A DNA stretch of 64,000 nucleotides from assembly GCF_016097555.1 (NCBI RefSeq), contig NW_024533043.1, forward strand, positions 1 through 64,000, read 5' to 3'. The position numbers and the translations under genes were made by a program. Source of the stretch: Gigantopelta aegis. Taxonomy: Eukaryota > Mollusca > Gastropoda > Neomphalida > Peltospiridae. The notes under the pieces are model-generated. The model saw only the letters and a list, made by a program, of their open reading frames with translations, was not told the origin of the DNA and searched no databases. Numbering within the stretch: position 1 is the first letter of the stretch; every line of letters begins with the position of its first letter. Below are positions 28,836-64,000 of the stretch, in pieces.

Positions 28836-28837
28836 CA

Positions 28838-29617: not shown

Positions 29618-29619
29618 AG

Positions 29620-31335: not shown

Positions 31336-31341
31336 ACAGAT

Positions 31342-31348
31342 TATATAA
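31342..31348 (+). promoter_or_regulatory. TATA box of family 2 CUB gene 3
   Basis: TATATAAGAATGGAATAAAC occurs in the conserved promoter block, about 70 bp before the ATG. Confidence 0.55.
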
Positions 31349-31415
31349 GAATGGAATAAACTGCTTTAGCTACAGAATCAACTTACTTCTCAGAAAACAA
31401 ACTTGAAAAAAAAGG

Positions 31416-32160: not shown

Positions 32161-32164
32161 CTTA

Positions 32165-32635: not shown

Positions 32636-32639
32636 ACCA

Positions 32640-33215: not shown

Positions 33216-33319
33216 AGATAGAAATACTCTCATTTTTTTTAACACCACCCACTTCTTTCTTTTTTCCCTGGCAATAGAGGACACCTAGGAGTTTTGGGAC
33301 GGGACCATCAAGAACATCC

Positions 33320-33740: not shown

Positions 33741-33744
33741 ACAT

Positions 33745-35690: not shown

Positions 35691-35696
35691 TTGACT

Positions 35697-36428
35697 ACTC
35701 CAACTAGTTGTTTTGGTGGTAAATAGTGCTCTTGGATAGCAATACTTAATTTTTCAGTGTCATGCACTCAGTCCAGCATGTACCATTAATGCAGGCTGGT
35801 GTTCGCCTTCATCTGGGTAATGATTGCAAATTAGTGCGCTTACGATTGTGATACTCGTCAAGGAAAGTGTTGTGTCTACCGGGTTGGTACTATTCCCAAA
35901 AAAGTATTTCAATTTACTCCATATAAATAATGAATATATTTTATCTCTCTCCTCTATAGTGAAAAATACAGAAATGTTTTAAGCATAGACGTCGTGTTAA
36001 AACATTTGTAGACTTCGAACAGGAAGCGGAAACCCACTCTTACAGTCCAAACATCCAGCAGATAGTAAACTAAGCCTACAAGTATTACTTAAGAACACCA
36101 AAATGCCAAACCCTTATCGCAAAAATGATATTTGTTGGTTACAAATATTCATTAAGTTGGCTGCCCCAAGACTGGTACCGTGTTAACTTGATAAAGCTTT
36201 TGTCACTTTTCCAGGAATAGCTAATTCAACAGATTTTGGCCTTATTATGTTCCCCGTTGCATGATGGACAATTACATACCAAACTTGTGTTGGCAATCAA
36301 ACCTTGGAGAATATTAACTATTACCATCATCTTAACTTTTTAGTATTGTTCGTCCTCTGGAATAAACTTTTAGAACCAACTAAAGATTATCGGATTTCAA
36401 TTTGGAAACTCAATGTTTTCAAATAAAT
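35697..36428 (+). pseudogene. CUB-domain gene, family 2, copy 4 (diverged)
   Basis: The cysteine-rich segment (SACTINAGVR-like), GTIPKK with a GTATTT donor (non-standard in place of GTATGT), the exon 2 landmarks and the CUB core are all recognisable. The first exon upstream of the cysteines does not match the family signal peptide, and the conserved TATA block is missing. The end reads ETQCFQINN in place of TQCG-stop. Missing promoter, altered signal region and altered donor together suggest a non-functional copy even allowing for noise. Confidence 0.6.
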
Positions 36429-42527: not shown

Positions 42528-42707
42528 AAAAAAAAACAACAGCAAGTCTTTATGCCATTTCAGTTTTTACATAGTTATAACTATAATGAAATTAATTAAT
42601 TAACTTTTATTGTGCTAGTTTTTTGCATAAATTTTTTAATCAAAACACAAAACACAATCAATATATATTCTTAAAATATAAATAAAATCTTAAACAGAAT
42701 TTATTTT

Positions 42708-44517: not shown

Positions 44518-44688
44518 GGTCACCACGTGTTTGAGCCACACCCACTTATATAGCAAGATTATTGCGCATGCGTGTAAATTTGAACAGTTTTGCGGGACCG
44601 GGATCTAATGTGTGTGAGTGCTAAGTGGTGTCTTGTTTCAAATTTGTAACAGAACTCTTGTGTATTCATTAAAGTATTTCTGATCAAC
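44518..44688. promoter_or_regulatory. Short divergent (bidirectional) promoter region
   Basis: About 170 bp separate the RIOK1 start from the ATG of the plus-strand exon. The region is GC-richer than its surroundings (TGCGCATGCGTG, GCGGGACCGGGA) and has no TATA box, as expected for a housekeeping bidirectional promoter. The palindrome TGCGCATGCG near 44564 resembles an NRF-1-type site. That reading is inference. Confidence 0.5.
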
Positions 44689-46592: not shown

Positions 46593-47414
46593 TTATTTTT
46601 GCTTGTGCTTCCAACCTTTGTAAGTATTCTGCTGTTCTGGTATTTGATCTATGTATATGTTATGTAACTTCTCCCAGACTTTGATCTTAAAACCGGCTTT
46701 AATAAGATTTACAAGACCTTGATCATCATCTCTATCACTGAGGTGCCATATTTGTCCAACGTATAGGGTAGGTTTATGATGGTTTTTAAAATACTCGACT
46801 AGAGCTTTTGAGCAGTTTGCACATGATGTATTCTTAATCCCATAAGTTGTAATATTTTGAGGATTAGATTGACCTTTCATAAACATCACTTCAGCATGTG
46901 GGTCCTCCAGGAGTATTAATATAGATCTGTATAAGAAAAAAAATTCTTTTAATTTTAATGTTTAAAAGCTTAGCTTATGAATTTAGTTAATACTACTTAC
47001 ACACTGCAGCTAAATAGCTACCACAGTGGCTGTTTTACCTTGCCAGTGTTAGTCAGTAGTAGTGTTCCAGTTTCTTCACACTTGCTCTCATTGCAACATC
47101 ATATTCCTTATTATTATCTCCATCATCAATTGACTCCAGTGGTGGTTCAAACTCTGATGCGACTGTATAATATATGTTAGTTTTGAGAACTTGGTATTGC
47201 AAGCCGCCATTGTTTAAATCACCAATTTCTACATTAACATTTGTCATTTTCTTTGTTTTTATATGAACTGCTTCAATACTTGATACAACTGCCTTGTTCT
47301 TTCTTGATGTCTTCTTGCAAAGGCATACACAACAGGAAACAGATGCATAGTGCAAAAAATGACAGCTGATAATACAGCTAAGGTTATCAATAGAGCAAAA
47401 TATAGAGTCTCCAT
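46593..47414 (-). CDS. AID/APOBEC-like deaminase, membrane-anchored, first of the array
   Basis: Exon 1 (47414-47039) encodes METLYFALLITLAVLSAVIF, a membrane helix or uncleaved signal, then SVSCCVCLCKKTSRKNK (clustered cysteines plus basic residues), an acidic stretch (PPLESIDDGDNN) and AMRASVKK. Exon 2 (46926-46593) carries the deaminase: LLEDPHAEVMF (HxE), 21 residues, then NTSCANC, TLYVGQIWHL, GLVNLIKAGFKIKVWE and a basic tail. The usual SPCxxC reads TSCxxC here, so the proline next to the first zinc cysteine is serine. A T run at 47355-47360 shifts the frame in exon 1. AADs convert cytosine to uracil in nucleic acids; the target here is unknown. This gene resembles type A and lies outside the repeating block. 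Confidence 0.82.
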
Positions 47415-48009
47415 TTTGAGTCTAATGGAATAAACACCTTACTAGTTCTTCTGATCTAGTAGACAGAATGACTTAGTATATCCTTTTATAATCTGTTCAT
47501 GCTGAGCAGGTAGAAACTATATACTGCTTTATTATAGTATGTTATTTACTAACTTTACTATATGAATAGTCCTATGATATTTTCCCTACATGTTTACTGC
47601 ATTACCTCATAGTGCTATTCTAGGACAGTTACTATTAATTGCTTTTGTTGGTTAATTGTATTCATTGTGTATTTTATTCATTGCTATATATACAGTAGTA
47701 CGTCATGAAGTGTTAATAGATTTAGGTTAACTTTGCTATTGAGACTAATACATGTGCTGTCAAGTTTATGATAACTTGTTATTTGTTTGTGTGTGTGGTG
47801 TTATTTTTGTGACTAGCCATCTGGTGTTGTTGTTATAATATAAATACATTACATATGATGACATCATAATGAAAGGATAGATTTTGCTATTCTTGCTCTT
47901 GAATATTATAATAAAAATTCATCGGGTATGAAGTTTACTGACATGTTAATTGTTAAAATTTGTAAGTAACAAACAACTGATGTGAATTAAAATGCATTTT
48001 ATGGATGTC

Positions 48010-48350
48010 CTTCATGTGTTGTTTATTTTATATATCATAACAATATGATAGAAAATTCATAAATCTCCAAACATCTAATTTGAAGCGGCTGTTCACTAAT
48101 TTGTGTAATGCCCTATTATTATCATATCTAAGGTCAGAAATCTCTTTGATACTGATGGTTAGTTTCAGTTTTGAAAGAAATATTTTAGTTGTCACATGTC
48201 ACACTATGTACATGTTGAAATCTTATATTGGTAAAGTTAGATCTGTTTTAAGAATCCATCATACTTGTTCAGAATGTACAAACTGATTGTTTTTATAGAC
48301 TTCTCTAGTGTTAATAACAAGATAGATGTGAGATTGATTGTGTACACACT
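48010..48350 (-). pseudogene. Degenerate type B/B' deaminase
   Basis: On the minus strand the segment aligns with the type B' gene at 61673-62178: NLTSILLLT.EKS-like, the NNQFVH-like segment, and C-terminal parts (ALRELVND-like) in broken frames. Both HAE and PCxxC are destroyed by substitutions and not only by indels. A CTATAAATAGTAAC upstream motif follows at 48362-48405. Confidence 0.65.
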
Positions 48351-48507
48351 AAAAAGTTAAATCTATAAATAGCAACATGCTGAAAATTAAGTCTATAAAT
48401 AGTAACACACTAATTACAATTAGAGGAAATCCTGTCAATTAGTTTATATTATTTCTTAATAAGATTATGAATAACATGTCATGGGATACATAATTTTTAA
48501 TCACAAC

Positions 48508-48510
<3 letters not shown>

Positions 48511-48547
<37 letters not shown>

Positions 48548-48553
48548 ACACAC
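48511..48553. repeat. (CA)n microsatellite
   Basis: About twenty CA units with one interruption. Confidence 0.95.
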
Positions 48554-48699
48554 ATTGACTTAGTAACAATATTTCATTACTTGTGACCAACTATTCACTT
48601 ATGATATTATTAATGAGTTATAAACTCACTTTAGATACACAATGGACAAAAACTAACCACATAAAGTTACTCTTAATAATTATATTTATAATTCTTTTT

Positions 48700-48880
48700 T
48701 CTTGCTTGTTCTTTAAGTTATATAAGTAGTTTGTAGTCTTGGGACTTGATCCGTATTTCCTGTTTTGAAATGTTTCCCATTCCTTTTGATCTTAAAACCT
48801 GCTCTCATAACATGTATGAGTTCTCATCTGTATTAGGGTGCCATATTTTTTAATTCATCAATGATGTGTACTAGTCATTA
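48700..48880 (-). pseudogene. C-terminal fragment of a type A deaminase
   Basis: Only the last part of a type A gene is visible: IWHPNTDEN-like, a MRAGFKIK-like segment and the C-terminal helix remnants. The catalytic part is absent. Confidence 0.6.
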
Positions 48881-48979
48881 ATTCCTGGTTATGGAGGGAA
48901 GGAGGGGGGGGGTAACCACAATAACACCTAGACAAAGCCATATAAGTTTCTATAAACTTTTTTGTTTATCACAATGGGT

Positions 48980-49115
48980 CATCAGTTTTAGTTTTACTTT
49001 AGATCTGTTTTGTCTTATATAACAATTCATCAATACTTGTCAGGATGCACAAACTGATTGTTTTTTATAGACGACTTTAGTGCTAGTAACAAGATAGATG
49101 TGAGATTGATTATGC
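48980..49115 (-). pseudogene. Short type B deaminase fragment
   Basis: This is a partial match to the segment around the HAE motif and the preceding NLTSILLL.. stretch of type B' genes. It is followed upstream by two CTATAAATAGTAA motifs (about 49130 and 49158). Confidence 0.55.
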
Positions 49116-49401
49116 GCATTAAATATTAAATTTATAAATAGTAATGTACTGAACGTTAAGTCTATAAATAGTAACACACTAATGACAATGAGAGGGAATC
49201 CTGTCAATCATTTTATTAATTCTCTCTCAGTAAAATTATGAATAATTTGTCACAGCATTCATAATTTTGATTACACCACACAATGGGCAGTAATAAAATA
49301 TTCATTACTTGTGACCTTCTTTAACTGTGTATAATGATTTATTAATAAGTTGGAAGAAAGCTAAATAGTAAATACATAAAAGGCATTCTTAATAATAATA
49401 A

Positions 49402-50166
49402 TTAGAGTTCTTTATGTTGTTTCTTATTCATTTTTTCCCATAATTTTCTTAGGTAATCTTTAGTCCTGGTATCTGAACCATACATCATATCATGTAATGG
49501 TCTCCCACACTTCGATTTTAAAGCCTGCTTTAATAAGATTTATGAGTCCTTGATCATCATTTTTATCATTGAAGTGCCATATTCGTCCAACATAAATGGT
49601 CGGTTTGTGATGATTTTTTTTTAAAATAGTCAAGAAGTGCTCCTGAACCATGAACACATGGCGAATTCTTGATCCACAGCTCTTTGATAAGATTTCGATT
49701 GATAGATTTGTCATTTATAAACTGATTTCAGCGTGTGTTCCTCTAGGAGTGTTAAGATATTCCTGTAAAAATAAACAAAGTAATACTGAAGTCACAAATA
49801 GAATATCGCACTAGTGGTTTTATAGGAATTTGCTGAATATTTTTAAAGCTACAGTAGTTATACAACTTTGTTTGAGTACTTTTCTGGCTATTTTTAGATC
49901 CTTCTGGAATTACACACTTTGTTGTGTATTAAATTGATCCCCACTTCCTAACCCAAAACACTTAATAATATACAACAAAGTTTGACTTCTTGCTGGACGT
50001 ACAGGTACTATTACCCTTTTTTATTATGTACTATTTACTTTGCCAGTGTTGGGTCAGTAAAAGTGTTCCGTGAGAGTTATTAGCTTTTTTTTGCTGCATC
50101 ATAATCATTATTACTGACTCCTGTTATTATTGTTGTCAGTAAAATAAGTAAACATAAGATCTTCAT
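49402..50166 (-). CDS. AID/APOBEC-like deaminase type A', predicted secreted
   Basis: Exon 1 (50166-50039) encodes MKILCLLILLTTIITGVSNN, a typical cleavable signal peptide, then DYDAAKK and GTLLLT. Exon 2 (49762-49402) encodes the deaminase: HAEIS, then LWIKNSPC followed by VHGS, KPTIYVGRIWHFND, GLINLIKAGFKIEVWE, YDMMYGSD and a lysine-rich tail before TAA. The second zinc cysteine of PCxxC reads glycine, which would damage zinc binding if real. One base is missing just after HAEIS. Later blocks hold only exon 1-like remnants of this type, so this may be the only full A' gene in the window. Confidence 0.78.
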
Positions 50167-50392
50167 GTTGAGTTTGCTAGAATAAAAGTATATAATAATT
50201 TTACACAAGTTTATAGTTCTATTCTACGTATAAAAACTACAGTGATAATTTTATATTTATTATACTAATATTGTGGACAAATACGTTTTAATAGTATAAA
50301 GGTTTACTTTTAGGAGCTTGATTAAGTTTAGAAACTCTCCCCTTGCAATTTTAGTTCATTTTGTCTCTTGTTAATTACACTATAAAATACCT

Positions 50393-50402
50393 GGAAATTC
50401 CC
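50393..50402. promoter_or_regulatory. kB-like site upstream of type A' gene (block 1)
   Basis: GGAAATTCCC lies in a region matching the perfect palindromes at 56262-56280 and 62815-62845. Here the flanking arms are imperfect (TACCT / ACGGTA). Confidence 0.5.
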
Positions 50403-50607
50403 ACGGTAATTTTTGGTGCAGGGTCAATTGTTGATATAGTTTTTAATTATATTCACTGAGATGACTGTTTTTTATGATACCATTGACTGTATCTGTATTC
50501 TTGACTAGATTATCATAGTTTATAATGTTATTAATGATTTTTAGTATCAAAGTATAAATTAATTTAAATATTATTATTCAAACATAAAACAATTAGATAT
50601 TATATAT

Positions 50608-51433
50608 CAATAATGACCTTCTCTTGTTTGTGTTTCTAATTTACGCAAGTATTTGCAGTCATTTGATCTGATCCATACATCATGGTATGTAATGTTTCCC
50701 ATACTTTGATTTTAAACCTGCTTTCATAGGTTTACGAGTCCTTCATCATCTTTTATGACATAAAGATGCCATATTCGTCCAACATATATAGTAGGTTTAC
50801 GATATAAGTTAAAATATTCAAGAAGTGCTCTTGAACAATCTGCACATGGTGAATTCTTGATCCATAGAGTTGTGATATGATTTGGCTTGTTAGATCTGTC
50901 ATTTATAAACTTGATTTCAGCATGCACTTCTCCAGGATTATTAAGATATTCCTATATAGTGAAAAGAAATCCATGACTATATGAAATATCGTACTTAAAC
51001 AGTAAATCAATACAAATGCGTTGTCATAGTTAATTGTTGGCTACTGTAAGAGGTACAAATTTAATTGGAGATCACTATCATTTGCATTTTTTGTTTACCT
51101 TGTCAGTATTGGTCCATAAAAGTGTTCCATACTCTTTGTCACTCTCATTGCAACTCATACTCCTTTTTAGCTTTGCTGTTAGTTGAATGTAATAGTGGTT
51201 CAATGTCTGTTGTAGAAACTGAAGAATCAGAACTACTATCTTCTAAATCAGTATTTTTAATGACCCATTGCTTTGGTTTTAACTTTCTCTGTGTTGACAG
51301 GATGGCCTGCTTCAATATCAGGTTTTACTTGGTATTTCTTTTGTGTGTTCTGCTGGTGGTGACACCAACAACAGGCACAACAGCAGACAATAATACTACC
51401 TATTATAATTAGTAAAATATATATGGTCACCAT
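50608..51433 (-). CDS. AID/APOBEC-like deaminase type A, membrane anchor with cysteine cluster (block 1)
   Basis: Exon 1 (51433-51099) starts MVTIYILLIIIGSIIVCCCA and continues CCWCHHQQNTQKKY: a membrane helix followed directly by six cysteines. After a linker rich in S/D/E (EDSSSDSSVSTTDIEPLL) comes EYGTLLWTNTDK. Exon 2 (50951-50608) has a complete catalytic set: MHAEIKF, LWIKNSPCADCSRALLEYF, KPTIYVGRIWHLY, EGLVNL and, after one shift, a C-terminal KLETQTREGHY. HAE to PC spacing is 22 residues. A 5' UTR intron is likely (acceptor TATTTCCAG just before the ATG, donor GTAAGC near 51603) and the promoter TATA box is at 51680-51673. Cysteines beside a membrane helix are often palmitoylated; this is inference. 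Confidence 0.85.
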
Positions 51434-51672
51434 CTTGTGTCTACTGGAAATAGAAATATATTAGTAGTAAACTTATAGGTCAAGTATTTTATAATGAGAT
51501 TATATGAAGGAGTTTATGACAGCTATACCACTATTATTAGTATAGAATACATTATATTATATAACATTATTATAATACATACTATATACAATGTTGCTTA
51601 CTTTTGGTGTTTCTTGGTCTCAGTAAGAATTTATAAACTTTCCACTAAAGAGTACATTGTCACTGATTGTGT

Positions 51673-51680
51673 TATTTATA
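51673..51680 (-). promoter_or_regulatory. TATA box of the type A deaminase gene (block 1)
   Basis: TATAAATAACAC on the minus strand. The same element precedes the type A gene of block 2 (57617-57610) and the chimeric type C copy (54009-54002). Confidence 0.55.
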
Positions 51681-51719
51681 CTCTTCAGTTGTTGCTGACT
51701 GCGTAGATTGCTCAATATT

Positions 51720-52385
51720 TTTTTAGTTGTTTGCTGTATCAGCTCTTTAATATTATAGTTCTTTATTAATGATTTGTATTAGTCTCAATTCCTGTTCTTG
51801 TGAGTAACCGCAATAACATGAACTATAGACAAAGCCATATAAGTTTCTATAAACTTTTTTGTTTAGTAATTCTATCACTTAGAATTTAATTAAACTCATT
51901 TCTAAGTAGCTCTTGTTCTGATAGACAGATTTATTAGGTTATATCTATACTTACGAACTGTGAGTCACTTCACTAATGCTTGCTCCATGTCTGGTTGTGA
52001 CATGTATATGTTAATATTTAGGGTTTCTTTCTCTTCAGTTATTGTTTCTTGAGGTAAGTTTTCTTGATTAGTTATGTGACAGTATCTTATACCTAGTAAA
52101 GATGGTGTATTTTTGCGTGTGAGAGTTCAATGTTAAATTGATTGTGGTTATGTTACTAAAATCTGATTAGTTATCTATACTCGCTAACTAAGTGCTGAGT
52201 CAACCAGATTGTTTGCCACACATAGGAGAAGGTCTTTATATTTGGTTTATTTTTGCCAGACTTTGTCCCACCCATTTTTATTAGATAATGTAACAAGGAT
52301 ATGAATTGTTTTAATTAAAACTAATAACGCATATTATAGATATATTCCAATGTTCGTTTAGTTTTTATACTATAACAATATAATA
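51720..52385. other. Spacer between type A and type B genes
   Basis: This is non-coding DNA, closely repeated at 57720-58400 in block 2. Confidence 0.6.
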
Positions 52386-52391
52386 GAAAAA

Positions 52392-52875
52392 TCATAAGTC
52401 TCCACTCACTATATTAAAACCATCATTTACTAACTCTCTTAATGCCCTACAGTTATCATTTCCAAAATCATAAATCCTTCCGACACTGATAGTTGGGTTT
52501 GACTCGGCAATTTTGAAAGAATTGTTTTAATTGGCCCTAGCACACTGTGTACATGGTGACTCTTTATCCAAATATGAGTAACTTTTAGATCTGTCTTTAT
52601 TTCTATAATCATCCATAAATGCTTCCTCAGCATGAACAAAGTGGTGATTTTTGTAGATCTCTCTAGTGTTAGTAACAGATAGACATGAATCCATCAAGTT
52701 TAGCAGAGATAGCTGTACACAGTAGTGTCCACTTTAGCAATATCCACTTGACTATATACCATATCACCACTGTCAATATTATAATGATGATAAACACTAC
52801 TAACACTAGAGAAATAATTGGATAACATATATACTGTACTGTATAATGATAATACTTACTACTAATATCAGCCAT
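52392..52875 (-). CDS. AID/APOBEC-like deaminase type B (block 1)
   Basis: It starts MADISS with a tiny first exon (16 coding bases) and a short intron ending TTTCTCTAG. The second exon gives LVVFIIIIILTVVIWYIV (membrane helix), LLKWTLLCTAISAKLDGF, then HAEEAFM in another frame, KVTHIWIK and a disrupted SPCTQC segment, and ends near DGFNIV. It is the duplicate of the intact gene at 58406-58933 and differs by several single-base shifts, so its frame breaks may be sequence errors. Confidence 0.75.
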
Positions 52876-53027
52876 TACGTCAACTCACTTTGTATGTTTT
52901 CCTATTCTGTTATGATCCAATCAGATTTCTTGGTAGTTTTTTTCTTTGAATGATTGTTTATATTATGTGTATACTGTATGTAGTGTAATGTCCTATTTTT
53001 AAACTATTGGGTTCCCAAGAATTGAAA

Positions 53028-53050
53028 TCTATAAATAGTAACATACTAAT
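53028..53050. promoter_or_regulatory. Recurrent CTATAAATAGTAACA upstream motif
   Basis: The motif 'TCTATAAATAGTAACA(C)ACTAAT' followed by a GGGA.. block occurs about 130-160 bp upstream of type B and B' starts here, at 55631, 59070 and 62323, and at remnants at 48362, 48391, 49130, 49158, 54573 and 61268. On the minus strand it reads as a weak TATA element. Confidence 0.5.
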
Positions 53051-53229
53051 TAAAGGGACCTTCTCTTTAAAAGAATGCCATGAATTAATTCAGTAATTAT
53101 TTCCCATTGAAATAATAATATTCATTATTTCAGAAAATTAGATCACTAGTCCATTTAAAATTTTTTATATATGTTCAGGCTGAAATAACAAGTTTCTGAG
53201 AGTCCTTTAGTAATATATACATGATAACT

Positions 53230-53700
53230 GGAATGATTTCTATTGCTAGTAATACTTCTTCCTTGGAGTATCCCAGACTTCTAGGTAAATCCTTCCTTTT
53301 CTCAAATTTCTTAAACCTTGACAATTATACCTATTATCTCCTTCTATCATATCTTTCCAATTATAAATTAGTATTTAATGCATCTCGTAGAAAAATGATT
53401 GATGAGACAGCTTGAACAGTCACCACATGGAGATTCTTGATCCAAATATTATGAATATCACTAGCAGATATATGTGTTCTTTGAATCATTACCTCCCTCA
53501 GCATGTTTATGAGGCTCACTTCAATAAATGTGACCAGTGTGTTAATACGAAGAAGCAGTACCTTCAGTTGTAAAAGCCATTTTAGCTGCTTCTTCTAGTG
53601 AACAGATAGAACCAGTTGAAAGATAACATGGCCTTGTTTTTTGCACATATCTAGGTAGACGAGAAGCGCACATCTTAAATGATATTATATATAATACACA
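53230..53700 (-). pseudogene. Type C deaminase copy with lost N-terminal exon and altered 3' end (block 1)
   Basis: The sequence matches the type C gene at 59534-60203 over the deaminase exon: the SLEEAAKMAFTTEGT segment, HAE-like (H-AE in broken frame), ISASDIHNIWIKNLHVVTVQ with the frame shifted across SPC, and a CLINHFSTRC-like stretch. Two structural losses set it apart. About 260 bp corresponding to 59312-59575, which holds the C-terminal end, are missing. The membrane-helix exon upstream is also gone, replaced at about 53770 by sequence of the type A 5' end (AAGATG with TATA box at 54009). The gene is therefore chimeric or dead. Confidence 0.75.
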
Positions 53701-53769
53701 ATTAGTATTATATATGACTATTGTACCATAGATAATTCTTTACTCTATTATCTATGGTCGTTCATAGTA

Positions 53770-54280
53770 AAATATCTCTCATCTTCTGTCTATTTTGAAT
53801 AGAAATATATTAGTAATAAACTTATAGGTCAAGATTTATAATAAAGATTATGGAAAGTATTCTAGTATAGAATACATTATATTTACGTAACATTATTATA
53901 ATACATACTATATACAATGTTGCTACATTTTTTGGTGTTTTCTTGATCTCAGTAAGAATTTATAAACTTTCCACTATAGAGTGCATCGTCACTGATTGTG
54001 TTATTTATACTCTTCACTTGTTGCTGACTGCATGTATAATTAGATTGCTCAATATATGATACTTGCTTTTTTAAAGTGATTATGTAACTCAATATAGTTG
54101 AGGTAGCAATTAAGTTATTATAGTTGTTGTATCATCTCTTTAATCTATTTTGTACTAGTCATTATTTTCCTGTGTATGGAGGAGGATAACTGCAATAATA
54201 CTAGCAATAGACAAAGCCATATAAGTTGAATGTAAACAATTTGTTTTTTCGCTTATTAATACTATCACACTATTCATCAG
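53770..54280. other. Type A-like promoter fused upstream of type C copy
   Basis: 53790-54130 matches 51440-51720 and 57380-57720 (5' UTR intron, exon and TATA region of type A). The rest is spacer with no gene. Confidence 0.65.
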
Positions 54281-54284
54281 TTTT

Positions 54285-54720
54285 AGTTATTAAAAAGATA
54301 TTACTATGGTTACACAATTTAGAGAAGAGTTAATGGCTCACATTAATACAGTTGACCCAAACATCACCCATGACATAACACCTTTTGTATTTGATTCATC
54401 CTCGTTTATTGATAAGGACATAAATTTATTATGTTAAAATATGTTGTGGATGTATTTCATTTGTTGTCACTAAAACATACTAAAATGGGGGTGTATAACA
54501 ATCCCTCACTAACTTTTTTATAATGCTCTATTGCTATCATTTCTAAAGCCAAAGTAGGTTGATAGAATCGACGTTTATAAATAGTACACACTAATGAAAG
54601 GGACCTCCCCTTTAGAGGAATTCCAGTAACTCTCCCACTAAGAGTGGTATTCTTAATTTTTATAATTTTGAACAATATTAGATATTCATAAGTTTAGAGA
54701 GCAAACATTTCCTGGGAGTG
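54285..54720 (-). pseudogene. Short type B C-terminal remnant and spacer
   Basis: About 54485-54560 matches the C-terminal end of type B genes (ALRELVND/GNDN region) in a degraded form, followed by the TATAAATAG motif. A second copy is at 61180-61300 in block 2. It has no catalytic part. Confidence 0.5.
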
Positions 54721-54982
54721 GTTTAGTGAGCCAACAAATAGAGTTCTGTTAATAGAAACATTTTGACAACCAAAAAACATTTAGACAGCTGAAACATAGC
54801 TCTTGAAATTTTGCCATTTATATTGACTTATGTCATTTAAGAAGACCTCTGTACATGTCTACATTTGTCTTATAGTTTTTTCTTTGGATAATTTGAAAAA
54901 GTATGATTATCAACCAATTGATATTATCAACTAGAAATGCATATTATGGATATAATTCAAATGTCTTTCAGTAGTTTTGTCA

Positions 54983-55498
54983 TTACAATGCATTAAGAAA
55001 TGCATAGATAAATGTCCATACTTCTAACTTAAAGCCATCATTTACTAACTCTCGCAGTGCCCTATTGTTATCATTTCCAAAGTCATAATCCTTCCAACAC
55101 TGATAGTTGGTTTGGCTCGACAGTTTTTTGAAAGAATTGCTTCAAATCCCAAGCACACTGCATACATGGTGAACTCTTTATCCAAATATGAGTGACTTTA
55201 GATCTGTTTTTATCTCTATAAGCATTCATTAATACTTGCTCAGCATGAACAAACTGATTGTTTTTGTAGACTTCTCTTGTGTAGTAACAAGATAGACGTG
55301 AGATTTGTTACGTCTAGCAAAGATAGCTGTACAAATTAGTGTCCACTTTAGTAACAGCCAGCATATTGTAATCTTTAGTCCATATAAGATTACCAATAGT
55401 ATGATTATTAGAACAATATATCTAGCATCAAATGAAATAATTTATATATACCATGGAATATATTATACTTACTACTAATATCAGCCATGGTCTTAGCC
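54983..55498 (-). CDS. AID/APOBEC-like deaminase type B' (block 1)
   Basis: The first exon is MADIS (ATG at 55498-55496) with a GTAAGT donor. Exon 2 begins after ATGCTAG and reads ILF/LLVILLVIL (membrane helix), YGLKITICWLLLKW, then TNLTSIL/LLHKRS, NNQFVHAEQVLMNAY, SHIWIKSSPCMQC after correction, KPTISVGRIYDFGNDN and GFKLEVWTFIYAFLNAL before TAA. The catalytic residues HAE and PCMQC can all be located. It has three or four single-base frame breaks. It is nearly identical in layout to 61673-62178. Confidence 0.75.
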
Positions 55499-55689
55499 TT
55501 TGTAAGTTTCCTAGTCCGTTGCTAATGATTTAAGCAACAATTTCTCTGGTAGGTGTTATTTCTTCTTTCTAGTTATGACTTTATCATACAGTATAAAACT
55601 TGTAGTAATCTATATTTTAAATTGAATTAAAGTCTATAAATAGTAACACTAATGACACTAACTCGAGGGACTCCTTTTTAAAGAATCTC

Positions 55690-56062
55690 CTCATTTCATT
55701 AATTCTCTTTCGCTAAGATTACAAATACTGTAATATTTAGAATTTGATTCCTTAAAGATATTCATAATTTCAGTGAGATAGGCTCCTATAGAAGTCTTTC
55801 AGTGTTGTACTTAAAACATTTTATCATTGTTTCTGGGTAATTTTAGCCAATTGTCTTCACATTCATGAGATTCTTGCTTTGTTAGTAATCCAAGCATTTT
55901 CCTAATAGTTTTCTTTATTGGGATGGTTGTTAGAATGTCGATATTGGAGTGTTATTAATTATTAGCCCTTCTTGCTGCATCATGTACATTATTACTGACT
56001 TCTATTATTATTATTGTCAATAAAGTAGCTATAAACATAGGATCTTGATGTTGAGTTTGTTG
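55690..56062 (-). pseudogene. Type A' first-exon remnant (block 2)
   Basis: About 56062-55960 matches exon 1 of the secreted type A' gene (ILCL-like, LLTIIIIEVSNN), but the ATG reads ATC and no A' deaminase exon follows. The sequence farther 3' (55690-55950) matches the 108-codon frame at 62450-62776 in pieces. Confidence 0.65.
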
Positions 56063-56261
56063 GAATAAAAGTAATAACATAATTATGACTAATTATGTTT
56101 TTATTCTATATATAAAAACTACAGTCAAAAATTTACTACTATATCAAACAAAATACTGTTTAAATAATGTAATGGTTACTTTTGAGAGGTTATTGAAATT
56201 TGGAAATTCTCCCCTTGCAGTATTAGTTCAGTTTGTCTCTTGTTAATTACAATATAAAAAT

Positions 56262-56280
56262 ACCTGGGAAATTCCCAGGT
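56262..56280. promoter_or_regulatory. Palindrome with kB-type core (block 2)
   Basis: ACCTGGGAAATTCCCAGGT is a perfect 19 bp palindrome around a central A. The core GGGAAATTCCC (56266-56276) fits the NF-kB consensus GGGRNNYYCC with an extra centre base. Confidence 0.65.
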
Positions 56281-56519
56281 GTTTTTTGTGCAGAGTTATT
56301 GTTGATATAGTTTTAATTATATTCATTGGAGATGACTGTTTCTCTACTGACAATACTTTTATTTCCACGTACTAGATTATGTTAGTTGTGATACATTGAT
56401 TGTATTTGTATTCTTGACTAGATTATTATAGTTTATAACGTCATTAATGAGTTTTGGTTTCAAGTTATAAATTAATTTAATATTTATTATTCAAACATAA
56501 AACAATTATATATTATATA

Positions 56520-57368
56520 TTAATAATAAGCTCCTCTTGCTTGTGTTTCTAATTTATGCAAGTGATCTACAGTCTCGTTATATATAATCGATACTTTAGT
56601 TTTATTGTATTGTTTTCCCATACTTTGATCTTTAAACCTGCTTTCATAAGATTTATGAGTCCTTGATCATCGTTTATGTTATCAAAAGCGCCATATTTTT
56701 TCCAACATAAATTGTCGGTTTTGTGATGATCTTCAAAATATTTATGAAGTGCTCTTGAGCATTTATCACATGGTGAATTCTTGATCCATAGAGTTGTAAT
56801 GTCATTTGGATTGTTAGATCTGTCTTTATAAACATGATTTCAGCATGTCGTTTTTCCGGAGTGTTTAAGATATTCCTGTATTATTAAAGGTTATACTTTG
56901 ATACTGATAACTATAGATTAATAGAATAAAACAATGCAAATTTTAATGTGTTGACTCTGAGTCTCTTGTACTCACTCGATATAAGACATTGACAGATGTA
57001 GTAGATAAATTATCTATGTTTTAGTTAGTTTATTACTAGTGAAACGATTATGTGTCATAATTAATTGTTATGCTGCTGTTAGAGGTAAAACTTAAGATCA
57101 CTATCACATACATTTAACCTTTTTTACCTTATCAGTATCAGTCCTTAAAAGTGTTCCTTTCCGTTTCTTAGCTCTCATTGCAGCATCATGCTCCTTAGTT
57201 CTGTCATCAGTTGAATCTAATAGTGGTTCAATGCCTGTTGTAGTAAAACTGACAAATAAGAACTACTGTCTTCTAAATCAGTAATTTTAATGGCCTGTTG
57301 TAATGGGTTTGATTTCCCTCTGTGTTAATAGGATGTAAATTAATAAATTGTAAATTATCTGTCTCCAT
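56520..57368 (-). CDS. AID/APOBEC-like deaminase type A without membrane helix (block 2)
   Basis: ATG at 57368-57366 starts METDNLQFINLHPINTEGNQ. Compared with the block 1 gene, about 85 bases encoding the helix and cysteine cluster are absent, and HPINTE joins directly to the linker. Exon 1 ends at 57127. Exon 2 (56875-56520) has HAEIMFIK, DITTLWIKNSPCDKCSRAL, HHKT, GLMNLMKAGL-like and a C-terminal TQARGAYY before TAA. HAE and PCDKC are intact. Small shifts remain near 57250, 56820 and 56690. Without the helix the product would be cytosolic or nuclear. Confidence 0.75.
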
Positions 57369-57609
57369 CTTGTTTCTATTGGAATAAAAAATATATTAGT
57401 AGTAAACTTATAGGTCGAGTATTTATAATGAAGATTATATGAAGGACTTTATGACAGCTATACCACTATTGTTAGTAAAGAATACATTATATTTATATAA
57501 CATTATTATAATACATACTATATACAATGTTGCTTACTTTTGGTGTTTTCTTGGTCTCAGTAAGAATTTATAAACTTTCCACTATAGAGTGCATCGTCAC
57601 TGATTGTGT

Positions 57610-57617
57610 TATTTATA
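57610..57617 (-). promoter_or_regulatory. TATA box of the type A deaminase gene (block 2)
   Basis: TATAAATAACAC on the minus strand, in the same position relative to the 5' UTR intron as in block 1. Confidence 0.55.
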
Positions 57618-57719
57618 CTCTTCAGTTATTGCTGACTGCATGTGTATTAGATTGCTCAATACATGATACTTAAAGTGATTATGTAACTCAATATAGTTGA
57701 GGTGGCAAATATTTTTATT

Positions 57720-58400
57720 AGCTGTTTGCTGTATCATCTCTTTATAAAATATTTATAATTCTTCATTAATAATTTGTACTAGTCATCAATTCCTGTTCTT
57801 GTGAGTAACCATGAGCTATAGACAAAGCCATATAAGTTTCTATAAACTTTTTGTTTAGTAATTCTATCACTTAGATTTATTTTTAACTCATTTCTAAGTA
57901 GCTTTTTGTTCTGATAGACAGGTTTTATTTGGTTATTCTATCTATGCTTATGAAATGTTCTTGTATTGTTGTACGAATACCTTATTTTGTTGTGAGTCAT
58001 TGCCTATCCCATGTCTAGTTGTGACATGTATTTGTTAATATTAGATTTTTTTCTTTATTTTCTGTTTATCTAATTAAGTTTTCTTGAGTTAGTTATGTGA
58101 CAGTATTGTTTATGTATCTTTTACACCTAGTAAGATGTTGTATTTGTGTGTGTGAGAGTTCAATGTTAAATTGATTGTGGTTATGTTACTAAAATCTGAT
58201 TAGTTATCTATACTCGCTAACTAAGTGCTGAGTCAACCAGATTGTTTGCCACACATAGGAGAAGGTCTTTATATTTGGTTTATGTTTGCCAGACTTTGTC
58301 CCACCCATTTTTATTAAATAACGTAACAAGGATATGAATTGTTTAATATTATTTAACTAATAACGCATATTATAGATATATTCCAAATGTCGTTTAGTTT
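57720..58400. other. Spacer between type A and type B genes (block 2)
   Basis: Non-coding; near copy of 51720-52385. Confidence 0.6.
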
Positions 58401-58405
58401 TTATA

Positions 58406-58930
58406 CTATAACAATATAATATAAAAAACCATAAGTCTCCACTCAACTATCTTAAAACCATCATTTACTAACTCTCGTAATGCCCTACAGTTATCATTTC
58501 CAAAATCATAAATCCTTCCAACACTGATAGTTGGTTTGACTCGACAATTTTGAAAGAATTGCTTTAATTTCCTAGCACACTGTGTACATGGTGAACTCTT
58601 TATCCAAATATGAGTAACTTTAGATCTGTCTTTATTTCTATAATCATCCATAAATGCTTCCTCAGCATGAACAAAGTGGTGATTTTTGTAGATCTCTCTA
58701 GTGTTAGTAACAAGATAGACATGAAATCCATCAAGCTTAGCAGAGATAGCTGTACACACTAGTGTCCACTTTAGCAATAGCCAAATTATTCTCTCAACTA
58801 CATACCATATCACGACTGTCAATAATGGTATAATAATGATGATAAACACTACTAACACTAGAGAAATAAATTTGTTAACATATATACTGTACATGTATAT
58901 GATGTAATACTTACTACTAATATCAGCCAT
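58406..58930 (-). CDS. AID/APOBEC-like deaminase type B, intact reference (block 2)
   Basis: The frame is open from ATG to stop. The first coding exon is MADIS(S). A 57-base intron (GTAAGTATTACATC...TTTCTCTAG) follows, and it is itself in frame and stop-free. After it come LVVFIIIIIPLLTVVIWYVV (membrane helix), IIWLLLKWTLVCTAISAKLD, VYLVTNTREIYKNHHF, HAEEAFMDDY, 23 residues between HAE and PC, THIWIKSSPCTQCARKLKQF, KPTISVGRIYDFGNDN and ALRELVNDGFKIVEW. The predicted size is about 155 residues with the intron removed. All zinc ligands and the catalytic glutamate are present. The single deaminase domain is compact, with a shorter HAE-PC spacing than vertebrate AID. Membrane orientation is not known. 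Confidence 0.88.
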   Translation of the reverse strand: MADISSKYYIIYMYSIYVNKFISLVLVVFIIIIIPLLTVVIWYVVERIIWLLLKWTLVCTAISAKLDGFHVYLVTNTREIYKNHHFVHAEEAFMDDYRNKDRSKVTHIWIKSSPCTQCARKLKQFFQNCRVKPTISVGRIYDFGNDNCRALRELVNDGFKIVEWRLMVFYIILL

Positions 58931-59069
58931 TACGTTATCTTGCTTTGTATATTTTCTATTCTGTTATGGTCCAATCAGATTTCTTGGTAGGTTTTTTTCT
59001 TTGAGTGATTGTTTATATTATGTGTATTGCAATGTCTATTTTTAAACTATGTAGGTCCTAAGAATTGAA

Positions 59070-59095
59070 ATCTATAAGTAGTAACATACTAATTA
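59070..59095. promoter_or_regulatory. Recurrent CTATAAGTAGTAACA motif upstream of type B (block 2)
   Basis: This is the block 2 counterpart of 53028-53050, with one substitution in the TATA-like part, about 140 bp upstream of the start. Confidence 0.45.
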
Positions 59096-59533
59096 AAGGG
59101 ACCTTTGATTTCTCTTTAAAAGAATTCCATGAATTAGTTCAGTAATTATTTCCTATTGAAATTATAATATTCATTATTTCTGAAAATTAGATCACTAGTC
59201 CATTTAAAATATTCTTATAATATGTTCGGAAATAACAAGTTTCTGAGAGTCTTTTAGTAATATATCCCACGGCAACTGGAATGATTTCTATTGCTAGTAC
59301 ATTTCTTCAAACACTTAATACAGCTGCAATATAACACTTAAAGTTGCGCCTTTTTTATGTTGAGATATTTCATGTAATGAAAACTCTATTATCAACAAAA
59401 ATACAATTGATTATATACAACAAATGGGATACTCATTCTTTTTTAGCCAAACCTAACTTAACAATCAAACTTAATAGTATTTCTTTATTTACTAATAGTA
59501 ATTGTTATCTCCTTCATTACTACTGTTTACTAG

Positions 59534-60203
59534 TTAGAGATCAGCAAGGTAATTCCTGGTCTGTTGAATGTTATGGTTCTTTGGAGTATCCCAGACTTGT
59601 AGGGTGAACCCTTTCATTCTCAAATTTCTTAAACCTCGACGATTATTTCCATTATCTCCTTCCCATATCTTTCCAATATAAATAGTAGGTTTAGTGCGTC
59701 TCATAGAAAAATGATCAATAAGACAGCTTGAACAGTCAGCACATGGAGAGTTCTTGATCCAAATACTATGAATATCGCTAGCAGATGTTTGTCTAATGAA
59801 TACTCTCTCAGCATGTTCATAAGGCTCACTCCAATAAATATGACCAGTGTTAATACGAAGAAGAGTACCCTCAGTTGTAAAAGCCATTTCAGCTGCTTTT
59901 TCTAGTGAACAGGTAGAACCAGTTTGAAACATAACGTGGCCTTGTTTCTTGTATATATCTGGGTGGCCTTGTTTTCTTGCACATATCTGGCAAGAGAGAA
60001 GCGCACATCTGAAAATGTTATCACAATTAGTATTATATATGACTATTTTACCATAGGTAATTCTTTACTCTATTATCTATGGTCGTTCATAGATGTCTTT
60101 CTTTACCTTGGACCAATGTAATTGGGTTCCTGGCATAACTGACAAAAAATATAAAAAGGATTACTACCAACAGAATAACTAGGACGAATACAATATAGAG
60201 CAT
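59534..60203 (-). CDS. AID/APOBEC-like deaminase type C, membrane helix and cysteines (block 2)
   Basis: Exon 1 (60203-60107) encodes MLYIVFVLVILLVVILFIFF then VSYARNPITL, an N-terminal membrane helix. An in-frame start at 60226 is blocked by a stop, so 60203 is chosen. Exon 2 (60008-59534) begins CALLSCQICARKQGHP and includes a short internal duplication (GHPDIYKKQGHV). It continues MFQTGSTCSLEKAAEMAF, TEGTLLRINTG, EPYEHAERVFI, SIWIKNSPCADCSSCLIDHF, KPTIYIGKIWEGDNG, GLRNLRMKGFTLQVWD and a C-terminal RNYLADL. The catalytic set is complete and the frame is open across the whole exon. It is the clearest type C gene. Confidence 0.87.
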
Positions 60204-60229
60204 TCTTCTGGAGTTTTGTGATCCATGTT

Positions 60230-61180
60230 AAGTTCACTATAAGGCAATCCTGTTAGAATGAAAGATAAGTAGAATGAGAAGACAATGGGTTTACCTCTTT
60301 TAAACTCTTGTTAGCATACACAGGGGTGCTAATTGTTATGTGGGATTGTACTGGGAAGTTTTATCTATAGAAGATAGCAATGACTGGAATCTCCCCTTTT
60401 TGGTTTGATAATTCTTAGTAATGTGTACCAACTGTCACTGACATTATGAATATATTAATTCATCTAATTCCTTGAAGTATGGTAATGTTAATAAATATTG
60501 ACAAGGTTCATTTGTAAGTGTATTTTTTATATACATATAATTCACTACATGTAATCCTGAAATACAATTGTAAATATCTTGACATATGCAGTTATTTAAA
60601 AGGGCAACCATAATATATAAATATTGTGTTTTATTTGTAATTGTATCTGAATATATTGCTTTCTATCGGTATTAGAATTATTTGTTTGAAGTTTAACAAG
60701 TTGAAATTTCATTTGGTCATTCAATTGTGGTTTTATTAAAGATATGTATTGTTTATTAAGTTATTTCATGTTTCAATTCATTTTAATTTTTATTTTACAC
60801 TGGTTATCTACAGACAAAATACAATGGTGGAAACTAATAGCATTGGTTTTTAGCTTGTTGAAGGGATAAATTTGGCAAATTTTTTTCATTATAGCACCCT
60901 CACGATTATTCCGTTAAAAATACAACGTATTGTATTTTTATACATACTGTGTATTGCATTCTCTATTTTTAAACTATGTAGGTCGTAAGAATAAAAGATA
61001 TAACTATGGTTGCACAATTTAGAGTAGAGTCATGGCTCACATTAATACAGTTAATCCAAATGTCACCCAAGAGATAATTTGTATTTGTAGTTTATTGATA
61101 AGGGCATACATTTATTATGTTAAGTAGAAATAGATGTTATGGATGTATTTTTTTTTTTTGTGTCACTAAAAAGCGTTAAA
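60230..61180. other. Spacer between type C and type B' genes (block 2)
   Basis: The first ~750 bp have no counterpart that I recognise in block 1. From about 60990 the sequence matches 54285 onward. No gene is seen. Confidence 0.45.
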
Positions 61181-61672
61181 ATGGGGTGTATAACAATCCC
61201 TCACTAACTTTTTATAATGTTTTATTGCTATCATTTTTAAAGCCAAAGTAGGTTCATAGAATCGAAGTTTATAAATAGTAACACACTAATGAAAGGAACC
61301 TCCCCTTTAGAGGAATTCCAGTAAACTCCTCCACTAAGAGTGGTATTCTTAATTTTTATAATTTTGAACAATATTAGATATTCATAAGTTTAGAGAGCAA
61401 ACAATTTCCTGGGAGTGGTTTAGTGAGAACAAATAGAGTTTTATTAATAGGAACATTTTGACAAGACATTTAGACAGCTGAAACATAGTTCTTGAAATTG
61501 TGCCATTTATATTGACTTATGTCATTTAAGAAGAGACCTCTGTACATGTCTACATTTGCCTTAAGTTTTTTCTTTTGATAATAAAAAAGTATAAATTATC
61601 AACCAATCAATATTATCAACTAGAAATGCATATTATGGATATAATTCAAATGTCTTTCAGTAGTTTTTGTCA

Positions 61673-62178
61673 TTACAATGCATTAAGAAATGCATAAATT
61701 GTCCACACTTCTAACTTAAAACCATCATTTACTAACTCTCGTTAATGCCCTATTATTATCATTTCCAAAGTCATAAATCCTTCCAACACTGATAGTTGGT
61801 TTGGCTCGACAGTTTTGAAAGAATTGCTTCAAATCCCAAGCACACTGCATACATGGTGAACTCTTTATCCAAATATGAGTGACTTAGATCTGGGTTTTTA
61901 TCTCTATAAGCATTCATTAATACTTGCTCAGCATGAACAAACTGATTGTTTTTTGTAGACTTCTCTTGTGTTAGTAACAAGATAGACGTGAGATTTGTCA
62001 CATCTAGCAGAGATAGCTGTATAACTAGTTTCCACTTGAGTAACAGCCAGCATATTGTAATCTTTAGTCCATATAAGATTACCAATAGTATGACTAGTAA
62101 GAACAATATATCTAGCATCAAATGAAATAATTATTTATACAATGGAATATATTATACTTTACTACTAATATCAGCCAT
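61673..62178 (-). CDS. AID/APOBEC-like deaminase type B' (block 2)
   Basis: First exon MADIS (ATG 62178-62176; donor reads GTAAAG, perhaps an inserted A in GTAAG). Exon 2: ILFLLVILLVILYGL (membrane helix), KITICWLLLKWKLV, LDVTNLTSILLLTQEKS, NNQFVHAEQVLMNAYRDKN, then SHIWIKSSPCMQC after one correction, ISVGRIYDFGNDN, and GFKLEVWTIYAFLNAL before TAA. It retains HAE and PCMQC. It is the partner of 54983-55498 in the other block and differs mainly by single-base shifts. Confidence 0.8.
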
Positions 62179-62449
62179 GGTCTTAGCCTTTGTAAGTTTC
62201 CTAGTCAGTTGCTAATGGATTAAGCAACAATTTCTCTGGTAGTGTTATTTTCTTGTTAGTTTATGACTTTATCATACAGTATAATAACTTGTAGTAATAT
62301 CTATTTTTAAATTGAATTAAAGTCTATAAATAGTAACACTAATGACCATAATTTTAGGGGCCTCCTCTTTAGAGGATTTCATTTCATTAATTCTCTCACA
62401 TTTGGATTAAAATTACTGTAAAATTTAAAATTTGATCTGTTAAAGATAT

Positions 62450-62776
62450 TCATAATTTCAGAGTGAATAAGTTCCTGAAGTCCTTCAGTGTTGTGTGCCG
62501 TATTTTAATAAAATTACTTGGAACATTTTCGTCATTGTTTTTCTGGCTAACTTTAGCCAATGTCTTTCCATTTATGACTTTCTTACTTTGGTAAGTGATC
62601 CAAGCAGATTTCCTATAGTTTTCTTTATAGGATAGTTTGTTTAGAGAGTGTCTATATTGGGATGTATAATTATTAGCTCTTCTTGTAGTATTAAGTTCAT
62701 TATTACTGACTTCTTTTATTTTATCAGTAAAAATATTAAACATAGGCTCTTCGTGTTGAGTTTTGTTAGAATACAA
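62450..62776 (-). pseudogene. Type A' first-exon remnant read into a 108-codon frame (block 3)
   Basis: The frame starts MYSNKTQHEEPMFNIFTDKI and includes EVSNNELNTTRRANN, which corresponds to the end of the type A' signal exon read out of its original register at the start. The rest (KSAWITYQSKKVING, VPSNFIKIRHTT) has no deaminase motif. The copy at 55690-56062 does not keep the frame, so this is more likely a remnant than a new gene. Confidence 0.45.
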
Positions 62777-62814
62777 AGTAATAAGACAATTAAGACTAGT
62801 TATATTCTACATAT

Positions 62815-62845
62815 AAAATCACCTGGGAAATTCCCAGGTGATTTT
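62815..62845. promoter_or_regulatory. Perfect 31 bp palindrome with kB-type core (block 3)
   Basis: The 15 bp arms AAAATCACCTGGGAA and TTCCCAGGTGATTTT flank a central A. The core GGGAAATTCCC is at 62825-62835. Positional equivalents are at 56262-56280 and 50393-50402. A DNA hairpin role is possible, and a kB-type protein site is the other reading. Confidence 0.7.
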
Positions 62846-63062
62846 TGTGTCAGTCATTGTAGCTTTAATTATATTCATTGGAGATGACTGTTTGCCATGA
62901 TACTTTCATTTCCTTGTACTGGATTATGTGTTTGTGATACATTAACTGTATTTGATATTCTTGACTAGATTATTGGTGTTGATGGAAATTAATAAGTTTT
63001 AGTAAAGTATAAATTAGTTTAAATATTATTGTTCAAACACAAAACAATTACGATATTGTATA

Positions 63063-63951
63063 TCAATAATGACCTTCTCTTGTTTGTGTTTATAATTTAT
63101 GCAAGTAATTTGCAGTCATTTGATCTGATCCATACATCATGGTATGTAATGTTTCCCATACTGTGATTTTAAAACCTGCTTTCATAAGGTGTACGAGTCC
63201 TTGATCATCATTTATATCATAAAGATGCCATATTCGAGTCCAATATATAGTAGGTTTTACGACATGAGTAAAATATTCAAGAAAGTGCTCTGAACACTCT
63301 GCACATGGTGAGTTCTTGATCCACAGAGCTTTGATATGATTTGGTTTGTTCAATGGGTCATTTTATAAACATGAGTTCAGCATGTGGTCCTCCTGGAGTA
63401 TTAAGATATACGGGGTCATAATAATCCTATATAATGAAAGAAATCCATGCTAGATGAAATATTGTACTTAAACAGCAAATTAATGTATTTAATCCTCTAG
63501 TAAATTAGTACAATTGTGTTGTCTTCATTAATTGTCAGTTATTGTAAAAGGTACAAACTTAATAGATATCTATCATTTGCTTTTATTTTTTGTTCACCAG
63601 GTCCGTATTGATCCATAAAAGTGTTTCCATGCTCTTTGTCAGCTTTCGTTGCAATAGCATGCTCTTCTTAGCTTTGCCATCCGTTTGAATCTAATAGTGG
63701 TTCAATGTCTGTTGTATGTGAATCTGAGTACTGTCCTTCTAAATCAGGTGATTTCAATATCCCATTGTTTTGGTTTGACTTTCTCTGTGTTTGATAGGAT
63801 GACCTGCTTCAATATCATGTAGTACTTTGTTTTTCTTGTGTGTGTTCTGGTGGTAGGACACCAACAGCACAACAACAGAGACAATATAAACAATAATGCT
63901 AACTATTGCAATAGTAAAAGGACTAAATATATGGTCTCCATCTTGTATCTA
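63063..63951 (-). CDS. AID/APOBEC-like deaminase type A (block 3)
   Basis: ATG at 63951-63949 starts METIYLVLLLL, and after corrections this gives a membrane helix and a CCCW-like cysteine cluster, then TRKTKY, DIEAGHPI and an acidic/serine linker to a GTLLW-like segment (63640-63600). Exon 2 (about 63425-63063) has GPHAELMFIK, NHIKALWIKNSPCAECSEHFLEYF, KPTIYWTRIWHLYD, GLVHLMKAGFKITVWETLH, YGSDQMTANYLHKL and TREGHY before the stop. It has a full catalytic set. The gene's upstream region runs toward the window edge. Confidence 0.82.
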
Positions 63952-64000
63952 TTGGGAATATAAATATATTAGTAAAGACTTATAGGTCAAGTATTTATAA

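Follow-up and report, generated by a model that had tools for sequence, protein, structure and literature searches.

How did a row of AID/APOBEC-like deaminase (AAD) genes come to stand side by side in one animal genome, and where in the cell would their products act? The question is raised by a 64,000-nucleotide stretch of Gigantopelta aegis (RefSeq assembly GCF_016097555.1, contig NW_024533043.1, positions 1 to 64,000; hereafter the window), which carries a minus-strand array of such genes from about 46.6 kb to its right-hand edge. We found that the array was built by tandem duplication of a multi-gene block and that its deaminase domain is matched best by profiles of AID and APOBEC3. Membrane segments are predicted in front of this domain in copies of all three of its subfamilies, and we give slightly better than an even chance to the reading that these classical-type AADs, several of which would have an N-terminal transmembrane (TM) segment before their single deaminase domain, are likely to edit foreign nucleic acid at membranes.

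A tandemly duplicated array of deaminase genes

A frameshift-tolerant aligner was run over 44.5-64 kb of the minus strand with three long open reading frames (ORFs) as queries. This yielded 12 copies of the deaminase domain and two fragments (14 pieces), each copy holding a single domain. The first-pass annotation of the window had reported about 13 such loci at 46593..63951, with one deaminase domain each; the array and the single domains are there as described, the count differs, and the span is slightly short, since the repeat block of copy A63 extends to the window edge (64000). The array may continue past that point. When three copies were compared with the whole window by tblastn, matches were confined to ~46.6-63.4 kb, with none outside the array.

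The copies fall into subfamilies A (A63, A56, A50, A49 and A46), B (B62, B58, B55, B52 and B48) and C (C59 and C53). In a small protein tree, support was 0.993 for B and 0.991 for C; the placement of A49 was not firm (0.458). Along the minus strand in the 5' to 3' direction, the copies run A63-B62-C59-B58, A56-B55-C53-B52 and A50-A49-fragments-B48-A46, with a spacing of 5.9 to 6.7 kb between corresponding copies; therefore, an A-B-C-B unit of several genes (~6 kb) was duplicated in tandem. Self-comparison paired 54293-56117 with 60993-62818 (86%), 51405-53261 with 57343-59308 (84%), 53259-53767 with 59577-60092 (81%) and 50471-51494 with 62931-64000 (80%), so that the expansion already suspected in the first-pass annotation took the form of tandem segmental duplication. 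The part between 46 and 50 kb is an older, eroded end of the array. The elements are as follows, with first exons as predicted and E-values for Pfam profiles in brackets:

63598..63941, minus: A63 exon 1, frameshifted; ATG, hydrophobic segment, KKNK and linker TTDIEPLLDS
63597, minus: GT of the A63 exon 1 donor (GTGAAC)
63077..63426, minus: A63 exon 2; deaminase core with HAE and SPCAEC (PF18767, 1.2e-21)
61688..62178, minus: B62, frameshifted; hydrophobic N-terminus and deaminase, the domain strongly conserved with B55
60107..60203, minus: C59 exon 1; predicted membrane anchor, MLYIVFVLVILLVVILFIFFVSYARNPITLVQ, ending at a GTAAAG donor
59537..60008, minus: C59 exon 2; open deaminase ORF with HAE and SPCADC (PF18771, 2.8e-19)
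58409..58930, minus: B58; intact 174-codon ORF, hydrophobic helix followed by deaminase with HAE and SPCTQC (PF18767, 1.7e-16)
57128..57368, minus: A56 exon 1; anchor segment deleted, linker
56604..56875, minus: A56 exon 2; deaminase core (PF18767, 5.9e-15)
55950..56050, minus: orphan first exon akin to that of A49
54995..55488, minus: B55, frameshifted; hydrophobic N-terminus and deaminase
53233..53624, minus: C53, decayed, with in-frame stops
52373..52875, minus: B52, frameshifted; hydrophobic N-terminus and deaminase
51099..51433, minus: A50 exon 1; starts MVTIYILLIIIGSIIVCCCACCWCHHQQNTQKK, then frameshift and linker TTDIEPLLHS
50621..50951, minus: A50 exon 2; deaminase core with HAE and SPCADC (PF18767, 1.9e-21)
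50039..50166, minus: A49 exon 1; starts MKILCLLILLTTIITGVSNN, signal-peptide-like
49423..49762, minus: A49 exon 2; deaminase core lacking the second zinc Cys (SPCVHG)
48995..49195, minus: B-type fragment; 5' half, hydrophobic
48699..48849, minus: A-type fragment; 3' half
48038..48492, minus: B48, diverged B; HSE, stop inside the Cys motif, probable pseudogene
47039..47414, minus: A46 exon 1; open from ATG with a hydrophobic start, then past a frameshift CCVCLCKKTSRKNK and a linker of ~80 residues
46596..46926, minus: A46 exon 2; deaminase core with HAE and TSCANC (PF18767, 2.5e-26)

Identity of the deaminase domain

Profile searches covered 13 sequences, namely the three long ORFs (B58, C59 and A46 exon 2) and 10 shorter pieces. 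The best Pfam models were those of AID or APOBEC3, the three longest ORFs reaching E-values of 1.7e-16 to 2.5e-26, and the similarity of the domain is therefore not due to chance. Curated AAD cut-offs were passed by all three long ORFs and, for at least one AAD model, by 6 of the 10 shorter pieces; the other four (52536-52676, 48052-48171, 53374-53439 and 54995-55087) reached no AAD cut-off. The model of SNAD4 (PF18750) scored over its cut-off in A46, B58 and C59, but was outscored in each by AID, APOBEC3 and APOBEC4_like and was never the top Pfam match in the 13 sequences. With NCBIfam, B58 gave only weak matches far under the cut-offs (0.0039 and 0.007), and C59 and A46 gave none.

Profiles of the wider deaminase superfamily, advised in the first-pass annotation together with error-corrected proteins, all remained under their own cut-offs: XOO_2897-deam for B58 and a B55 piece, MafB19-deam for an A50 piece, and dCMP_cyt_deam_1 for the A50 and B55 pieces as well as for B58 and C59. 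Scans with a three-sequence alignment gave 93 pattern matches in viral_contigs and 77 in genome_contigs without a confirmed relative, and so lend no support to an origin from prokaryotes or viruses.

In line with the AAD identity assigned at first pass, the predicted folds matched AID/APOBEC structures in 50/50 and 49/50 PDB entries among the matches listed, RibG being the sole non-AAD entry among the 50 listed for the B58 model. For the C59 model, Foldseek placed APOBEC2 at the top, whereas VIA-align put APOBEC3s first; the archaeal tRNA C-to-U deaminase 3g8q appeared in the Foldseek ranking at positions 31 and 49, amid APOBECs. Elements of this model follow the order b1-b2-a2-b3-a3-b4-a4-b5, and superposition extended to residue 132, both of which hint at the parallel beta4-beta5 arrangement of AADs.

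After frame correction, HAE was found in 11 of the 12 copies (B48 has HSE) and WIK(N/S)SPCxxC in nine, preceded by I in six and by L in three (A63, A56 and A50); these two motifs, noted earlier, were thus largely borne out, although the IWIK form then given holds for only six. Exceptions in the Cys motif are A46 (GIKNTSCANC, with SC for PC), A49 (WIKNSPCVHG) and B48 (ISTCT, a stop, then C). Both zinc Cys together with HxE are retained in 10 of the 12 copies, which would make zinc-dependent deamination possible. The array shares with the classical AID/APOBEC proteins (AID, APOBEC1-4) the HxE...(P/S)CxxC signature, the single domain, the modelled fold and the best Pfam matches. Unlike them, it has predicted N-terminal membrane segments and Ser or Asn in place of the Trp of SWSPC, and its C-terminus is short, above all in B.

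First exons and hydrophobic N-termini

A TM segment is predicted in four B copies, C59 and three A copies, and a separate first exon in the five A copies and C59; these N-terminal and anchor exons had been missed by the first-pass annotation. As a hydropathy control for this AT-rich genome, 283 Met-started segments from outside the array were scored by KD19, of which none reached 3.0 and one reached 2.8. The scores were 3.67 for B52, 3.62 for C59 exon 1, 3.31 for B58, 3.04 for one open frame of A63 exon 1 and 2.90 for A50, while open pieces of B62 and B55 gave 2.93 and 2.90, respectively. This control is independent for B58 and B52, where the hydrophobic segment lies within the deaminase ORF. 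In B58, MADISSKYYIIYMYSIYVNK and the 25-residue hydrophobic segment that follows belong to a single ORF, and the hydrophobic N-terminus is modelled as one helix (2-66). Delimited by eye, the hydrophobic runs in A, B and C span 21-27 residues.

The first exon of A50 encodes MVTIYILLIIIGSIIVCCCACCWCHHQQNTQKKYQ without interruption, followed beyond frameshifts by the linker TDLEDSSSDSSVSTTDIEPLLHS; it ends with GTLLWTNTDK at a GTAAAC donor. The start of its exon 2, EYLNNPGEVHAE, matches VTNTREIYKNHHFVHAE of B and INTGHIYWSEPYEHAE of C. Support for this reading of the A-type first exon comes from A56, since its linker runs in frame into GTLLRTDTDK. In C59, the frame join between the exons is uncertain, with a 28-bp tandem duplication at the 5' end of exon 2. 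Besides the orphan first exon listed above (55950-56050), a second one akin to A49 exon 1 lies at about 62720-62800 on the minus strand, and for neither was a matching second exon recognised downstream.

Frameshifts, selection and decay

Most array copies are frameshifted, and the earlier advice to work with error-corrected proteins was sound. Many of these frameshifts look like sequence errors rather than gene death, because the neighbouring RIOK1 gene is shifted in the same way, and because of the gap pattern and the low coding divergence in B. RIOK1 (42700-44520, minus strand; mostly one exon), which served as a gauge of indel errors, changes frame 8 times within one exon by our own reading of its segments; three pieces in three different frames, the ones confirmed against human RIO1, match that protein in order (chain positions 30-141, 144-225 and 228-281). 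A processed pseudogene without introns was rejected as an explanation for RIOK1, since a likely intron (GTAAGT...TTTTCAG) lies near its 5' end, the remainder being read as one exon.

In two B pairs, gaps of 1-2 nt were at least as dense in coding sequence as elsewhere (21 per 1009 coding columns vs. 38 per 2579 others), whereas longer non-triplet gaps amounted to 0/26 in coding and 12/60 in other sequence (p=0.015); including the A50/A63 and C pairs, the figures were 3/47 and 15/75 (p=0.064). Coding divergence was 3.5% for B62/B55, compared to 11.6% outside, and 4.8% for B58/B52, compared to 9.3%. Within the deaminase domain, no nonsynonymous change separates B62 from B55 over 80 codons, where the proportion of synonymous differences (pS) is 0.109, and B58/B52 have a nonsynonymous proportion (pN) of 0.015 and a pS of 0.082. 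Between recent B duplicates, the deaminase domain thus evolves under purifying selection. On the opposite side, comparisons across B subtypes gave a domain ratio of 0.43-0.95. With gapped codons omitted, the ratio of nonsynonymous to synonymous change (dN/dS) is 0.85 for C59/C53, 0.67 for A50/A63 and 0.44-0.54 for pairs with B48.

C53, B48 and A49 look decayed or altered, the first two with in-frame stops. Exon 2 of C53 and C59 (53233-53624 vs. 59537-59932) differs at 70/380 sites and the stretch upstream at only 10/128, which reflects either change faster than plain neutral decay or misalignment near frameshifts.

Predicted location and activity

The segments of A and C have no or negative charge before them and Lys or Arg after them, the values for A63 and A46 being read across a frameshift. 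Membrane topology follows the positive-inside rule, and because of these flanking charges the A and C domains are predicted to face the cytosol. A Cys cluster (CCVCLC, CCCACCWC) adjoins the hydrophobic segment and would presumably suit palmitoylation. The linkers of A63 and A50 contain DIEPLL (GIEPLL in A56, EFEPPL in A46), which we take to resemble an acidic-dileucine sorting signal and which could route the proteins to endosomes. There, or at other membranes, the proteins would edit cytosines in foreign nucleic acid, be it RNA, cDNA or DNA of viruses or retroelements, and the anchor may be a safety device that keeps the mutator from the nucleus. Most likely, these are membrane-tethered cytosolic mutators of innate immunity, a location and a target that we infer.

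Several observations weigh against this proposal. The topology of B is ambiguous from its flanking charges. Because hydropathy guided the choice of the A and C anchor exons among three-frame translations, the comparison with 283 segments is no independent control there; the KD19 of A46 (2.44) is matched by 3/283 controls, and that of A49 (1.84) is not exceptional. A49 looks secreted, A56 has no hydrophobic segment, and blastn with the upstream region of C59 found no C59-type exon 1 upstream of C53. The N-terminus of B (codons 1-60) is little constrained, with pN/pS of 1.28 for B62/B55 and 0.54-0.70 for five other pairs. In A50/A63, exon 1 differs at 78/315 sites and the intron at 21/140 (exon 2, 41/327; flanks, 6/60 and 18/144), an excess possibly due to diversifying selection, conversion or misalignment near frameshifts. 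The arms race suggested by the first-pass annotation would be plausible, but only C59/C53 and A50/A63 exon 1 outpace adjacent non-coding DNA, and the B domains of recent duplicates are under purifying selection. Finally, the Trp of SWSPC, which contacts the target base in polynucleotide-editing AID/APOBECs, is Ser in B (alignment to APOBEC3G), Asn in most A copies and in C, and Thr-Ser in A46 (KNTSC). Its replacement may alter the substrate or abolish activity on DNA, and DNA deamination is not assured because of it.

It is doubtful, in our view, that the hydrophobic N-termini are instead signal peptides and that the array encodes secreted or luminal deaminases, a set like the sponge SNADs. 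As far as the consulted parts of PMC11004436 go, AADs split early into classical proteins and secreted SNADs, the latter recognised by a signal peptide. By the same account, SNAD4 is known from sponges alone, a C-terminal cluster of three Cys seems characteristic of SNADs, and six of the 38 SNAD1 proteins analysed from fish carry a membrane-anchored region at the N-terminus; the corresponding parts of PMC8201067 state that, in multicellular eukaryotes, a predicted secretion sequence sets SNADs apart from all other AID-like enzymes. SNAD4 and fish SNAD1, so described, share with the array secretory or membrane N-termini joined to an AAD domain, and both the PF18750 scores of A46, B58 and C59 and the start of A49 (K-start, short hydrophobic run, G-V-S site) fit a secreted set. 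However, unlike in SNADs, the N-termini of the array are mostly anchor-like, given the length of their hydrophobic runs and the lack of a positive N-flank in A and C, and only A49 appears signal-peptide-like by eye. The SNAD-type Cys cluster is absent, with no Cys after beta5, from the four C-termini checked (A46, A63, B58 and C59), those of the remaining copies being uncertain owing to frameshifts, and SNAD4 was the best Pfam match of none of the 13 sequences.

An APOBEC2-like protein, with the right fold and a structural or RNA-binding role rather than that of a mutator, is unlikely. The replaced Trp would suit it, as APOBEC2 has SSSPC and, to our knowledge, no clear deaminase activity, and APOBEC2 is the top Foldseek match of C59, although not that of VIA-align. 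This is countered by the retention of HxE and both zinc Cys in 10 of the 12 copies and by loop 7 of B, which reads RIYD in the alignment, the same as in domain 2 of APOBEC3G.

It is improbable that the frameshifts and stops are genuine and that pseudogenes make up most of the array. In favour of this reading, long deaminase ORFs without disturbance are limited to B58 and the deaminase exon of C59, the open exon 2 of A46 has a C-terminus unlike the other copies, and C53 and B48 contain stops, C53 with its dN/dS of 0.85; yet RIOK1 next door is broken in the same manner while matching human RIO1 in order, long non-triplet gaps avoid coding sequence in the B pairs (less clearly in the wider set), and the B62/B55 domain is free of nonsynonymous changes.

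Comparison with known expansions

The literature on lamprey CDA1L1 and on SNADs shows that AAD expansion is of an already known kind. According to the abstract of PMC8962628, CDA1L1 comprises up to 14 proteins, with deamination activity and restriction of herpes simplex virus 1 (HSV-1); the array has expanded to a similar number. Unlike CDA1L1, it duplicates a multi-gene block and belongs to another lineage, and the CDA1L1 abstract mentions no membrane anchor. Apart from the remark on fish SNAD1, no membrane-anchored sponge AAD was met in the consulted portions of the literature, from which unpublished status cannot be claimed; the word 'sponge' is absent from the text of PMC13402138 and PMC13428168. 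As far as we have seen, anchored, unanchored and secreted-looking starts in one classical-type array are new.

Other features of the window

Two further repeat families were observed. The first, at 615-20389, has many copies on both strands (~66-96% identical) and encodes, e.g., KGSEIDIAE(G/N)DSVxIIDYKKHxVYxSITGSDKSLLQ; the second, at 24946-36416, consists of roughly four tandem units of ~2.4 kb with ~70-80% identity. For each family, the two ORFs tested gave no Pfam match. A minisatellite with a 60-bp unit in 11.5 copies lies at 22383-23073, and Sushi (CCP) repeat exons stand beside a TCCA microsatellite on the plus strand at 39491-41165. Rfam returned nothing at gathering level in the window. 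The RIOK1 and Sushi-domain neighbours would fit an animal genome.

Implications

We tentatively consider it possible that cytosol-facing tethered enzymes (A and C) and secreted, A49-like enzymes are encoded in one tandem array with exchangeable first exons. AID/APOBEC enzymes endanger the cell that produces them, and the means by which animals confine these enzymes are an open question. If the membrane-tethered reading is true, deamination would take place where foreign nucleic acid comes in, at membranes of endosomes or of the surface, and the nuclear genome would be spared. Related catalytic domains behind different anchors, linkers or signal-peptide-like starts would then offer a natural experiment on targeting. 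The published separation of secreted SNADs from intracellular classical AADs would also become less sharp, since the secreted-looking first exon of A49 precedes an A domain and three other A copies look anchored.

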